Positions 10,914 through 36,571 of a DNA stretch of 46,751 bases are shown piece after piece. Origin of the DNA: a virus; IMG/VR virus record IMGVR_UViG_3300027741_000109, positions 1-46,751 of that record; one strand, given 5' to 3'. The translations under genes were made by a program, and so were the position numbers. The notes beneath the pieces are model-generated. The model was not told where the DNA came from, ran no database searches, and saw nothing but the letters and a program-made list of their open reading frames with translations. Position 1 is the stretch's first letter; every line of letters begins with the position of its first letter.

Positions 10914-11189
10914 CTAACGAGTATCCCAATCACGGCGATGGCTGATAAGTTCATCGCCCCAACGAAGATGAAAATAAACTTCATCTTCTGGTGTAAAATC
11001 TGCTTCAATAGTTACTACATAACCAATATAACCATCAGGACTGTTTATGTTTGTTCTGAATAGTGGAGTTTGCAGTGCGTGTTCCATTACCCACGCACCA
11101 GCCTCACTCTTTTGCCATTCTATTATAGGACCAGCAGCATAGAGTTGGGCATCTTCTACATCACCCATACGGAAACGATGAACTATCAT
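10914..11189 (-). CDS. Small protein of the F-x(3)-R-W tail family
   Basis: 91 aa, no assigned function. It ends DFTPEDEVYFHLRWGDE followed by a short basic tail. The same acidic-turn plus aromatic/Arg-Trp ending recurs in the tandem small genes at 18303-19634 and at 36281, so I place it in that paralogous family. A GTAAATA late-type box (11195-11201) is exactly 5 nt before its ATG. The longer read-through frame of gp13 would overlap its end. Confidence 0.65.
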   Translation of the reverse strand: MIVHRFRMGDVEDAQLYAAGPIIEWQKSEAGAWVMEHALQTPLFRTNINSPDGYIGYVVTIEADFTPEDEVYFHLRWGDELISHRRDWDTR

Positions 11190-11194
11190 ACCGT

Positions 11195-11201
11195 TATTTA
11201 C
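11195..11201 (-). promoter_or_regulatory. Late-type box abutting ATG at 11189
   Basis: GTAAATA, 5 nt, ATG. Confidence 0.5.
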
Positions 11202-11485
11202 GCTACTTCAAATGCCATGAGATAGTAAGTTAAGTCTTCTGGTTCAAATTTTGCGGTAACGGCTACACGATATTCAAGTGATGCAATATCAAAATGGGCA
11301 TGGAAAGTTACGGTGTCCTTAATGGCATTCTCCCATACCCATTTATAATTTGTGCTAAATTGATGCCATAATATATTGGCTTCACTTTTTGCATCTTCCA
11401 ATGCTCTTTTTTTAGTAAATCCATATAAACTTGGATGTAAACTAGTGCGAAAAACCGTGATAGGTTTAGAAGGGCATATCTTCAT
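11198..11485 (-). CDS. Small hypothetical protein, same tail family
   Basis: 95 aa from the ATG at 11485, which has an AAGG site 8 nt upstream and overlaps the end of the preceding gene. A longer start at 11527 is possible but has no ribosome site. The C-terminus (TAKFEPEDLTYYLMAFEVA) parallels the PEDEVYFHLRW ending of its neighbour. The N-terminal half is basic with a W-containing helix (LWHQFSTNYKWVWENA). Function unknown. Confidence 0.6.
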   Translation of the reverse strand: MKICPSKPITVFRTSLHPSLYGFTKKRALEDAKSEANILWHQFSTNYKWVWENAIKDTVTFHAHFDIASLEYRVAVTAKFEPEDLTYYLMAFEVA

Positions 11486-11882
11486 CTTCTTTACCTTCAT
11501 ACCAATCTGGACCTGGGTCTTTACCATCTACGACTGCTTTTGTCATACGATCCATTTTACGCTTGCTTGCCAACTTTTCTTCACGGTCAGCAATAGTCTT
11601 GTCTTTAAAGCCAAGAATACTAATATACTCACGATACTTCATCCAACCATGCATAAAGTGAATACAATCTTCTGCCGTGCCACTGTATATCATTACACCA
11701 CGTGTATAGATTGGTAATATATCACCATCATCTTTTGGAACGGTAAGTGCAAAATCCGTGCCACTACTTTGTTCATAGGCATAAGAATTGTATGCACCAC
11801 GACTTGGAGTAATTTCAAACCCAAGTTTATTAGCAAGACCAGTAAGGTCGTTGATAGTGCGGTAGTGATTATAGTTTGTCAT
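11466..11882 (-). CDS. Hypothetical protein with acidic C-terminus
   Basis: 138 aa, not recognised. Residues about 60-90 (TRGVMIYSGTAEDCIHFMHGWMKYREYI) carry a conserved-looking Trp/His/Cys core, followed by a Lys-rich helix and an acidic end (GKEDEDMPF). The 4-nt overlap (ATGA) with the upstream gene and 20-nt overlap with the downstream one show a tightly coupled small-gene operon. The resemblance to other SGxAEDxxxFMxGW small phage proteins is only an impression. Confidence 0.65.
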   Translation of the reverse strand: MTNYNHYRTINDLTGLANKLGFEITPSRGAYNSYAYEQSSGTDFALTVPKDDGDILPIYTRGVMIYSGTAEDCIHFMHGWMKYREYISILGFKDKTIADREEKLASKRKMDRMTKAVVDGKDPGPDWYEGKEDEDMPF

Positions 11883-17245: not shown

Positions 17246-17858
17246 AAAAATCTATAGTGAGTTAGAAGAGCATACCACATATATTGGAAAAAATACACTT
17301 GATCCACAAAAAACGTGGGTTGACATTATAAACAATCACCAAAAAACTGAGTTAATAAGTTGGTTTAATAAAAACAATTATAAGGATTTTTTTTATGATA
17401 AAATCATAGTTGACGCTGGTTCTGGGCTAGGAAGAATGATTCCGCTATTATCTTTTTTTAAACCAAAGAAAATTATATCTGTAGAACCAGATTTAACACT
17501 CTTAGAAAAACAAAAAAAATTTTTAAATAGTGAATTTTATTTTTTACCCAAGAAAAAGATAAATTGTGAGATAGAATATATTAATCAAAATATAGAAGAT
17601 TTTATCGATAACAAACATAATTTTGACATTTTATGTTTATTTTATGTGATTGTCCATCTTGATATTAACAAGGTATTTTTAAATTTTAATAAAAATATGT
17701 TAATAATGAACAGTACAAGAAATTTAAAAGATGGAAAACTATTAGATATTATTAAGGAAAATGATCTTAATATTCATGAATATCATGAGTTTTCAACCGA
17801 AGAAAAATGGTTAACGAATGGGTCACATTTTTTGCTTTCCATCAAAAATAATGCTTGA
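17235..17858 (+). CDS. Class I SAM-dependent methyltransferase, AT-rich cassette
   Basis: 207 aa from ATG 17235 (GAGGAAG upstream), overlapping the previous gene by 11 nt. Motif I is VDAGSGLGR (residues 59-67), and SVEPD gives the acidic motif II. The end (STEEKWLTNGSHFLL) is family-like for small-molecule or sugar methyltransferases, but the substrate is unknown. Lys/Asn/Ile content is much higher and GC lower than in the flanking genes, and it lies inside a duplicated promoter repeat, both signs of recent acquisition. Confidence 0.75.
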   Translation: MANKKIYSELEEHTTYIGKNTLDPQKTWVDIINNHQKTELISWFNKNNYKDFFYDKIIVDAGSGLGRMIPLLSFFKPKKIISVEPDLTLLEKQKKFLNSEFYFLPKKKINCEIEYINQNIEDFIDNKHNFDILCLFYVIVHLDINKVFLNFNKNMLIMNSTRNLKDGKLLDIIKENDLNIHEYHEFSTEEKWLTNGSHFLLSIKNNA

Positions 17859-17893
17859 CAACCTTTAAATCTGTGTTATATTCATAATATAAG
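17850..17893 (+). repeat. 44-bp promoter repeat, copy 2
   Basis: Near-identical to 16571-16614 (three mismatches, all in the promoter spacer). It overlaps the end of the methyltransferase gene. Confidence 0.85.
17855..17882 (+). promoter_or_regulatory. Early host-like promoter
   Basis: TTGACA (17855-17860), 16 bp, TATATT (17877-17882) inside the palindrome TATATT-CAT-AATATA. It drives the small-gene run starting at 17909. Confidence 0.75.
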
Positions 17894-18274: not shown

Positions 18275-18296
18275 AAGGGGTGGGAAACCACCCCTT
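18275..18296 (+). terminator. GC-rich hairpin, terminator or mRNA stabiliser
   Basis: A 9-bp stem (AAGGGGTGG / CCACCCCTT) with a GAAA tetraloop follows the stop at 18269. There is no T run, so it may be a processing or partial-termination signal rather than a full terminator. Confidence 0.55.
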
Positions 18297-18302
18297 AATG
18301 CT

Positions 18303-18554
18303 ATGAGCAGTCGTTTAATTATAATAGATACCAAACATAGTTTAACTGATGTATTAGTATGGCTAGAACGCAATGTTAGTCCAGTTACCAATCGCAGTGC
18401 TATTTACGAAGGTCTAGACAATATGCCAGAGGGTGAGCATTGGAAAGTTGTCAATAAACCTACTCGTTATATGAGCAATGTGCGATTTGCGGTAGAGTTT
18501 GATGACACGGTTGATGAAAGTATTATCTTATATTTTGCATTGAGGTTTGTATGA
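18303..18554 (+). CDS. Tiny tandem paralogue family member 1
   Basis: 83 aa. Layout: N-terminal strand and helix (DVLVWLERNVSP), a middle strand with a Trp (GEHWKVVN), then VRFAVEFDDTVDESIILYFALRFV. The last part is the family tail: a beta-strand, an acidic turn, and a helix with Phe-x-x-Arg-Phe. It overlaps the next gene by 4 nt (ATGA). No known function. Confidence 0.65.
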   Translation: MSSRLIIIDTKHSLTDVLVWLERNVSPVTNRSAIYEGLDNMPEGEHWKVVNKPTRYMSNVRFAVEFDDTVDESIILYFALRFV

Positions 18555-18775
18555 AACCTATTAAAAATGACCTTAAAAATTATTTGAATTTTAAACGTAA
18601 GTTTGCGTTATTTCCGCACAGATGTGCTATATCCGAGCGTATCATTTGGTTAGAGTATGCGCAGTGTGCAGAGCCAAGTTGGATTGTATTAGGTGATGAT
18701 GAATTACTTAAATCTAAACCTATTTGGCACGATGAATATGAGCATCTTAATTGGGCAATTATAAATGACTTATGA
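18551..18775 (+). CDS. Tiny protein in tandem array, divergent member
   Basis: 74 aa. It shares the size and the W-E/Y pattern (AISERIIWLEYAQCAEPSWIV) with its neighbours but ends HEYEHLNWAIINDL-like (DEYEHLNWAIINDL), without the Arg-Trp tail. It may be a diverged paralogue or an unrelated gene in the same operon. Overlaps both neighbours (4 and 11 nt). Confidence 0.55.
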   Translation: MKPIKNDLKNYLNFKRKFALFPHRCAISERIIWLEYAQCAEPSWIVLGDDELLKSKPIWHDEYEHLNWAIINDL

Positions 18776-18995
18776 TATTGACATATCAGATGGTATGCTG
18801 CACAAGTGGTTATATTATGAAACTGGGTTTGAACAACTGCATCCTATTCCAGATATTATTCGTTGGATGGAAGAGCAAGGTTATGTGTATGGTAGGGATT
18901 GGAAAGTAGATACTTTCACTGGTAAAAGTTATTGGATTACATTTCCTAATAAGGAAATAGCAGCGTTATTTGTAGCACGATGGTCAGCATCTTAA
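18765..18995 (+). CDS. Tiny tandem paralogue family member
   Basis: 76 aa. An N-terminal helix (DIIRWMEEQGYVYGRDWKV) is followed by a strand and the family tail WITFPNKEIAALFVARWSAS. The shared design is a helix, a Trp strand, and a terminal helix ending in Arg-Trp. Overlaps neighbours by 11 and 16 nt, so translation is coupled. Function unknown. Confidence 0.65.
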   Translation: MTYDIDISDGMLHKWLYYETGFEQLHPIPDIIRWMEEQGYVYGRDWKVDTFTGKSYWITFPNKEIAALFVARWSAS

Positions 18996-19165
18996 TTAAA
19001 ACATATCCACTATCACCAAGAGCAACCTATGACCAAATTAAATGGTGTATGGATAATTGTAAGGGAATATGGGACAAGAAACCCGTAGAAAATGATGGCA
19101 TACACTGGACATTTAATAGCAGTGAAGATGCGGTTTTATTTGTAGTGCATTGGAAGACACGATGA
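18980..19165 (+). CDS. Tiny tandem paralogue family member
   Basis: 61 aa, the shortest of the set: YDQIKWCMDNCKGIWDKK helix, then HWTFNSSEDAVLFVVHWKTR as the tail, with His in place of the tail Arg. The acidic SEDA turn matches the 19162 and 36281 members. Overlaps neighbours by 16 and 4 nt. Confidence 0.62.
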   Translation: MVSILIKTYPLSPRATYDQIKWCMDNCKGIWDKKPVENDGIHWTFNSSEDAVLFVVHWKTR

Positions 19166-19407
19166 TGGATTTAAATTTTGAAAATGGTTTTTGGATTCCA
19201 CAAAATTGGAGTGATTCAACCAACACCATGTGGAAAAACTTTGCGACTTATTGTAAGAGCAAAGGTGCTTTTAATGAAGTTGTGCTGCTTACCGAGTTTA
19301 ATGCCAAAGCACAACGATATGCTTGGGGTGATGATGACGATGACCAATGGTTTGTGCGTTTTAATACACCCGAAGACTATACTTTTTTTGTAATGAGATT
19401 TGCGTAA
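19162..19407 (+). CDS. Tiny tandem paralogue family member
   Basis: 81 aa from ATG 19162, which overlaps the upstream stop as ATGATG; a start 12 nt earlier at 19150 is possible. It has a W-rich N-terminal part (GFWIPQNWSDSTNTMWKNF), an acidic loop (GDDDDDQW) and the tail VRFNTPEDYTFFVMRFA. The tail is nearly the family consensus: strand, (S/T)PED, Phe-x-x-Arg-Phe. Function unknown. Confidence 0.65.
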   Translation: MMDLNFENGFWIPQNWSDSTNTMWKNFATYCKSKGAFNEVVLLTEFNAKAQRYAWGDDDDDQWFVRFNTPEDYTFFVMRFA

Positions 19408-19634
19408 TGGCTAAAATCAGAGTTCATGAGTTAGGACCGCAACGCTGGCATATGAGTGTGTGGTTTTTCAACGACGATGGCAGCGTAAATTGGGAATTTA
19501 AGAAGTGGATGTCTGACAACTATCCAGATTGCCTTTGCATACACAGGTTTAATAGTGGTGAACCATATTGGGAACTGCGTGGTGGCGATCAGGCGGATCA
19601 GGCATTTATTGCGATGCGTTGGGGCGGCGAGTAA
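19407..19634 (+). CDS. Tiny tandem paralogue family member, last of array
   Basis: 75 aa. Pattern as in its neighbours: RWHMSVWFFNDDGSVNWEF, a helix, HRFNSGEPYWELR strand, then GGDQADQAFIAMRWGGE. The FNSGEPYW strand is echoed in the distant copy at 36281 (FNSGDPYWSL), which supports homology of the two loci. Start overlaps the previous stop by 1 nt. Confidence 0.65.
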   Translation: MAKIRVHELGPQRWHMSVWFFNDDGSVNWEFKKWMSDNYPDCLCIHRFNSGEPYWELRGGDQADQAFIAMRWGGE

Positions 19635-36122: not shown

Positions 36123-36284
36123 ATGTTAAATTATTCAATTGCAAAAATGATTGAGTTTGCTTTTACATATATAATCAACAACGAATTAAAAACTATGACA
36201 TATGATATGCCTGATGACAAGAGACTTACTATTATAGAGTATATGACACAGCGTATCGATGAGATACGCAAAGTTCATAAATGA
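36123..36284 (+). CDS. 53-aa hypothetical protein
   Basis: A short frame from ATG 36123 to TGA 36282-36284, with a late box 5 nt before it and an ATGA overlap with the following gene. Sequence is helical (YSIAKMIEFAFTYIINNELK, then IIEYMTQRIDEIRK). Promoter position and coupling support it as a real gene; function unknown. Confidence 0.5.
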   Translation: MLNYSIAKMIEFAFTYIINNELKTMTYDMPDDKRLTIIEYMTQRIDEIRKVHK

Positions 36285-36571
36285 ATCCAACAATAGATGA
36301 CATAGAAGTAGGTGGCGTTACCTCTCTTGCACCAGACAAATACCTAGTTAAAATATATCCTGATATCTTTGGACTAGCGTTTTACCCACCACTAAGCACA
36401 GATTTTTTAAAAGAAACAATACAACAACCACTAAAGCAATGGTGTGATGAATGTTTCTTAAATGAATACTCATTAAATTTTAGATTTAACAGCGGCGATC
36501 CATATTGGTCGTTGCTTTTTAGTAGCAGCAGTGACGTAAATATTTTTATGATGCGTTTTAAGAAAAATTAA
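36281..36571 (+). CDS. Dispersed member of the tiny tail-motif family
   Basis: 96 aa. The C-terminal half, LNFRFNSGDPYWSLLFSSSS followed by DVNIFMMRFKKN, parallels the FNSGEPYWELRGGDQADQ and AFIAMRW part of the 19407 protein, residue for residue in the FNSG(D/E)PYW core. N-terminal part (VGGVTSLAPDKYLVKIYPDI) is unlike the others. Function unknown. Confidence 0.65.
   Translation: MNPTIDDIEVGGVTSLAPDKYLVKIYPDIFGLAFYPPLSTDFLKETIQQPLKQWCDECFLNEYSLNFRFNSGDPYWSLLFSSSSDVNIFMMRFKKN

Follow-up and report, generated by a model that had tools for sequence, protein, structure and literature searches.

The array of overlapping small genes analysed here is, according to our profile comparisons, one local cassette from a superfamily of single-domain proteins specific to phages; in some T4-type giant phages this superfamily has grown to tens to about 200 diverged copies in a genome. 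The family was previously unnamed and is found in none of the family libraries used. Its members combine a constant C-terminal tail with a variable body, and the protein-level constraint on the tail is far above that on the body. We consider it quite possible, and tentatively prefer, that these proteins are early-type binders, in which a constant core or docking helix carries a variable body that would bind host or defence targets.

The window, i.e., the whole stretch of DNA that was analysed, is a 46.7-kb virus contig with 19 tRNA genes, a fragment from the genome of a T4-type jumbo myovirus. The tail sheaths most similar to that of the window are those of Sinorhizobium phage Phosso, Agrobacterium phage Atu_ph07, PA5oct, and RaK2-like jumbo myoviruses. 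The same array is present in a 338-kb relative (G001) and in a dozen shorter contigs. All six overlapping array genes originally reported are present (Table 1), and consecutive reading frames overlap in an operon-like manner, by 4, 11, 16, 16 (or 4), and 1 nt. The one call that had to be revised is the start of the fifth gene. The TTG start at 19150 (reading frame 19150-19407) is less likely than the ATG at 19162, which yields a protein of 81 residues and a 4-nt ATGA overlap; since the orthologues start at this ATG, it is most likely the true start. The window copy of gene b is without the N-terminal GQ.WYD..LK..DG..W extension of its relatives (e.g., L013 4213-4539). In L006 (5253-5945) and L014 (5254-6024), what we read from the sequence as a putative homing endonuclease gene directly follows the array; this gene is absent from the window.

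Table 1 Array genes, dispersed family members, regulatory candidates, and capsid-segment fusions. Coordinates refer to the window unless a contig is named
Feature	Coordinates	Strand	Description and evidence
Gene a, family member	18303-18554	+	83 aa; tail EFDDTVDESIILYFALRFV; predicted beta-alpha-beta-beta-alpha model; orthologues in 10/10 non-redundant relatives
Gene b, not a family member	18551-18775	+	74 aa; hhalign 0.1%
Gene c, family member	18765-18995	+	76 aa; tail WITFPNKEIAALFVARWSAS; hhalign 96%
Gene d, family member, accessory	18980-19165	+	61 aa; tail WTFNSSEDAVLFVVHWKTR; hhalign 95%; only 2 related contigs have it
Gene e, family member	19162-19407	+	81 aa from ATG 19162; tail FVRFNTPEDYTFFVMRFA; hhalign 73%; start as in orthologues
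Gene f, family member	19407-19634	+	75 aa; FNSGEPYW core; tail DQAFIAMRWGGE; predicted beta-beta-alpha-beta-beta-alpha model; orthologues in 12 contigs
Gene i, dispersed family member	36281-36571	+	96 aa; FNSGDPYW core as in gene f; tblastn to gene f E 5.7e-5; hhalign 82%
Gene g, probable family member	10914-11189	-	91 aa; 14-residue extension after the tail; tail PSSM/HMM; hhalign only 26%
Gene h, tentative family member	11198-11527	-	109 aa; tail only; tail PSSM/HMM; hhalign 1.7%
Hairpin	18275-18296	+	Perfect 9-bp stem, GAAA loop, GC-rich, without T-run; MFE -18.0 kcal/mol for the 41-nt stretch
Sigma-70-like promoter, candidate	17855-17882	+	TTGACA-16-TATATT (11/12); 5' of the two genes preceding the array; nearest strong upstream one
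gp23-segment fusion ORF	L353 963-1376
gp23-segment fusion ORF	L351 818-1297
gp23-segment fusion ORF	L352 885-1406
gp23-segment fusion ORF	G010 162463-162897
gp23-segment fusion ORF	L355 1047-1493	-
gp23-segment fusion ORF	L354 1042-1461	-

The original prediction held that five of the six array genes share a C-terminal tail and that related tails occur at three places outside the array. In a leave-one-out PSSM test, five of the eight window members outscore all 5480 shuffled ORFs (p about 2e-4), and the remaining ones reach p = 0.004-0.04, the best match of gene h lying outside its tail. The resemblance of the tails is therefore beyond chance for most window members. A tail HMM finds all eight places (E 4e-13 to 1e-8); since these places were its seeds, this recovery is not independent support. 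An independent check was provided by hhalign comparison of the window group profiles with 48 members from three other giant phages. It should be noted that the orthologue groups in the window's clade are shallow. Genes c, d, i, and e align to the wider family at the values given in Table 1; genes a and f reach 94% and 93% with bridging relatives and 38.8% and 42.1% without them, while unrelated window gene groups stay at or below 9.6%. The profile alignments of genes a, c, d, f, and i run from helix 1 (W-x-x-x-N) to the C-terminus at 82-96% (for a and f with bridging relatives only), and that of gene e is restricted to the tail part. The C-terminal motif F....DA..LF.L.[WF] lies within a few residues of the stop in genes a, c, d, e, f, i, and g, and is weakly recognizable in gene h.

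Judged by these profiles, the array genes other than b constitute, together with gene i, one family, which we regard as established; gene b belongs to a different family, as its exclusion from the original five implied. The outlying tails fared unequally: gene i is a member, gene g probably is one, and gene h can be assigned tentatively, with its tail as the basis. Two further candidates, genes 11466 and 11879, were rejected (hhalign 0.7% and 1.1%).

Across phages, the family comprises single-domain proteins of about 60-130 residues, in which helix 1 often carries W-[CL]-x-E-N and the third strand and second helix read F....DAMLFKL.W up to the stop, this consensus usually ending one residue before it. 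Searches with single members (tblastn against 50,697 phage records) yielded no convincing match, since divergence has brought the bodies down to chance level, whereas profiles and C-terminal-anchored scoring succeeded. In G001, the tail HMM marks 12 places; its matches in Phosso, Atu_ph07, and PA5oct are weak. A C-terminal-anchored matrix, which was not trained on G009 or G010, identifies 80-82 tail ORFs in the cultured phage Phosso, with the motif mostly within a few residues of the stop, 93 in the 417-kb contig G010, 206 in 390 kb of the 561-kb contig G009, and 10 in G001, compared with 0 in T4 and 0 in 98 kb of RaK2. The background of this matrix is essentially nil in shuffled sets and amounts to 0-3 matches at internal positions. 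Member counts vary with thresholds, the HMM at E up to 0.1 giving 50 in Phosso, 85 in G010, and at least 147 in G009, and the largest counts come from metagenome contigs. Nevertheless, the expansion is real, since it is seen in Phosso, a cultured phage. A second tandem trio of members lies in G001 at 278000-281500 (L051), and its ORF 1494-1739 bridges gene a to other members.

The DNA pattern AMLFKL.W-x-stop occurs in 70 viral contig stretches, many of them from contigs of 180-608 kb, and 67 of the 70 contain true members, often two to three per kilobase. A scan of bacterial and archaeal genomes (257 billion bases) with this pattern gave 13 matches, none of which is a member; the family is phage-restricted. 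Tail profiles have zero matches in thirteen other large or T4-like phages, namely P-SSM2, SCTP-2, Vibrio phage 2.275.O, XbC2, RaK2, T4, CBB, S-PM2, Lak-A1, Bacillus phage G, phiKZ, PAU, and CZ01. Of the large contigs checked, nearly all have a gp23 capsid gene, or a segment of one, of the T4 type. The members have a median length of about 93-95 residues, are mildly acidic, and are often encoded in series of as many as 12 genes that overlap by 4 nt.

Structure prediction supports a beta-alpha-beta-beta-alpha core common to the family, genes a and f being the two members modelled. The AlphaFold model of gene a has exactly this order of elements (pLDDT 82.4, pTM 0.72), and that of gene f adds a further strand at the N-terminus of this core (pLDDT 87.5, pTM 0.74). 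The proposal of one shared fold was thus borne out in these two models, which were compared by element order. Because the element order matches and the profiles link the members, at up to 96% in hhalign compared with less than 10% for unrelated controls, the original prediction came through on both counts on which it could have failed. Foldseek with the gene a model gave no confident match. With the gene f model it returned mostly eIF1/SUI1 chains (probability up to 1.0, TM about 0.6, best E 4.6e-3). This resemblance should be read at the level of predicted fold and topology only: the secondary structure order is alike, but identity is only 12-16%, E is above 0.001, the likeness is not seen with gene a, and eIF1/SUI1 proteins are basic while the tail-family members are mildly acidic. 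Moreover, the Pfam SUI1 profile matches no window member and none of 48 relatives.

The contrast between tail and body is pronounced. Among paralogues, mean pairwise identity is 0.32-0.38 in the last 18 residues and 0.46-0.57 in the last 9, and in all other segments it is 0.05-0.10, which is the chance level. Agreement of synonymous codons within the tails (0.38, 0.45, and 0.45, compared with 0.36, 0.41, and 0.37 expected) is nearly random. Conserved tails, bodies at chance level, and near-random synonymous codons together indicate selection on the protein sequence of the tail; gene conversion or recent copying of tail DNA was rejected on account of the codons. The near freedom of synonymous codons to vary also implies that most duplicates are old. 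Position 15 of the 18 tail residues is K or R in 90-98% of members, which counts toward docking, since fold packing alone does not require a charged residue. Furthermore, the tail consensus differs by phage lineage, ending in K-W-L in G009 and in T-W-G in G010. The basic residue of LF-[KR]-L, as seen in Phosso, G009, and G010, is not found in the window members, which mostly have R two positions later. This substitution marks the window's clade as a subgroup and does not bear on the definition of the family. Because this clade is without the conserved K, the docking surface may differ between lineages.

One alternative is that the tail is the central strand plus packed helix, needed for folding, and that there is no common partner, each protein working alone. 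In both models the tail indeed forms strand 3 and helix 2 of the shared core at high confidence, and its conserved positions are mostly hydrophobic or aromatic; since the tail is predicted to lie inside a folded domain, part of its conservation may be packing. We nevertheless judge this alternative somewhat unlikely. Folding alone would not readily account for strand 1, helix 1, and strand 2 standing at 5-10% identity against 46-57% for helix 2, for a basic residue kept so consistently within the helix, or for a separate tail consensus in each lineage.

The original prediction also attributed the array to tandem duplication with the strong divergence typical of an arms race. The first part is established for some relatives of the window. 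In G009, 35 pairs of neighbouring members have similar bodies, compared with 3.8 expected (permutation p = 0.0005), and in Phosso there are 4 such pairs compared with 0.7 expected (p = 0.005). Neighbours are thus more alike than distant members in these two phages, which argues for tandem duplication, while a third phage shows no excess of similar neighbours. The second part found no support. The dN/dS values of array-gene orthologues are 0.04-0.46, similar to those of neighbouring genes (several dS values are saturated, so only low-dS pairs are informative); no positive selection was seen, and the orthologues are under purifying selection. What differs between relatives is which array genes are present. 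Gene d is found in only two of ten relatives, gene c is missing in three (the G001-like contigs and L014), and gene b is absent in L006 and L007; the arrays of L005, L008, and L014 contain further family members.

The surroundings of the array give some indication of its expression. The hairpin of Table 1, located between gene 18129 and gene a, is conserved in L003 and L013. Six of the ten relatives (L005, L006, L007, L008, L012, and L014) have, in its place, a perfect TTGACA-16-TATAAT promoter exactly 6 nt before the ATG of gene a. With a promoter at this distance, the predicted transcript would start at the start codon of gene a, i.e., would be leaderless. A 6-nt spacing between promoter and ATG is the commonest across G001 as a whole. 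In the window, the sigma-70-like promoter at 17855-17882 is the candidate operon promoter. From the promoter type, the cassette is probably made early in the window's clade; sigma-70-type promoters show no excess before members in Phosso, G009, or G010.

Members also occur as double-domain proteins and as fusions to other domains. In five giant phages (G010, G011, G013, G016, and G020), and with the order reversed in G015, the tail-family domain is joined to a segment of 35-60 residues from the major capsid protein that the phage itself encodes (E 1e-8 to 1e-18). The segment aligns to residues about 94-132 of T4 gp23 and, by this alignment, corresponds to the conserved gp23 region containing Gol, which we take to span residues about 93-122. 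In T4, the Gol peptide binds EF-Tu and activates the Lit protease (PMC3014915). A stretch of 35-40 residues fused in the six giant phages is from the same capsid region as in this T4 exclusion system, but the window's own members are without it. In Phosso, a member at 113923-114303 (-) carries a different gp23 segment, an ORF at 182235-182855 has a gp23 segment without a tail, and a member at 117043-117525 (-) has an N-terminal stretch resembling two transmembrane helices. Another Phosso (PV764938) gene, at 367954-369522, encodes a CCA-adding tRNA nucleotidyltransferase (PF01743) with a member-like C-terminus and lies directly 5' of a five-member run; the fusion is probable, its tail being atypical in sequence.

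Other functions were weighed as well. Members might be modulators linked to translation, acting on EF-Tu, tRNA, or ribosomes and thus steering host translation. Such a role would fit the fusion of the domain, in six huge phages, to a capsid region described as EF-Tu-binding (PMC3014915), the member-like end of the Phosso CCA-adding enzyme, and the eIF1/SUI1 chains as best PDB matches of the gene f model. We find it distinctly unlikely, considering that the eIF1 similarity is one of topology in one of two models, that the members are mildly acidic, and that they show no association with tRNA genes, clustering near which was rejected by a rotation test. The tail or the fused capsid segment might also dock proteins to the head for packaging and injection, in the manner of T4 internal proteins. 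One constant tail on many different bodies, and the fusion of own major capsid protein segments in several genomes, could be understood in this way. Yet the capsid segment is on very few members, three PA5oct members have no ESI-MS/MS note in the annotated record while many of their neighbours have one, and the promoter type in the window's clade is early-like, so that a capsid-associated role appears very unlikely. That members, above all the gp23-segment fusions, are decoys occupying sensors such as Lit or CapRel-like systems is highly improbable: the fused segment spans the Gol region (PMC3014915) and capsid protein is known to set off bacterial immunity (PMC9712102), but only one or a few members per genome carry the segment, and, because Gol activates Lit rather than blocking it, a decoy would have to bind without activating.

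Pfam, PHROGs, NCBIfam, and PADLOC contain no match for the family, only scattered single-member matches, the best being that of one tail to a PHROG of unknown function (E 0.001; others above 0.005). The anti-phage defence profiles of PADLOC-DB gave two stray single-member matches among 48 members (E 0.0058 and 0.031), neither convincing, and the PDB searched by sequence gave nothing below E 0.05. One relative of gene a matched DUF6956 (PF22273) at E 0.067, which was treated as chance; this profile (cut-off 27 bits) has no match in 10 phage records at E 10, and control genomes are likewise without a match. No published description of the tail family was found in a search that covered only a minority of subscription journals and preprints. 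Closest among known cases is the expansion of zinc ribbons in Bacillus phage G, with about 35 copies, which was called unprecedented (PMC7824862). There, too, a small single-domain protein has multiplied within one giant-phage lineage, but the zinc ribbons have a different fold, are several times fewer, and have no described shared C-terminal tail; the tail profile has no match in phage G.

Returning to the preferred reading of the family as binders, the proteins would be small binders and not enzymes: they are small, show no conserved residues of catalytic type, and join a variable body to a constant tail, all of which fits a binder with one constant and one variable surface. The constant strand-helix unit would form the core of the structure and probably double as a shared surface for docking or oligomerisation, and the variable first half and loops would select different partners. 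The partners would most likely be host or defence proteins, each bound by a binder of its own, with binders acquired and lost as the host range changes. Such targets are, in our opinion, the likeliest in view of the kind of promoter seen in the window's clade, the genes gained and lost among relatives, and the scale of the expansion. Counting against this reading are the PADLOC result, the sigma-70 promoter counts of Phosso, G009, and G010, and dN/dS values that give no sign of positive selection. Since hosts sense phage capsid protein, as in CapRelSJ46 capsid-triggered immunity (PMC9712102), proteins carrying a capsid segment would be meaningful.

Whatever the partners, a large share of the unknown genes in some giant phages collapses into one family: Phosso has about 80 tail ORFs compared with 735 annotated features, and members make up about 22% of the called genes in the stretch of G009 that was read. 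Annotators gain a profile and structural biologists a single fold to solve, and the role of many small unknown giant-phage genes becomes testable through one partner hunt, for which the capsid-segment fusions offer EF-Tu and capsid sensors as concrete first targets. A bolder extension, which we regard as unlikely, is that roughly a tenth to a fifth of the genes in some giant T4-type phages are plug-in adaptors, whose constant C-terminal helix would dock one common phage partner, whose hypervariable body would pick host targets, and whose capsid-Gol versions would handle EF-Tu or capsid-sensing immunity. If true, this adaptor repertoire would correspond, in phages, to the large sets of effectors that eukaryotic pathogens deploy.
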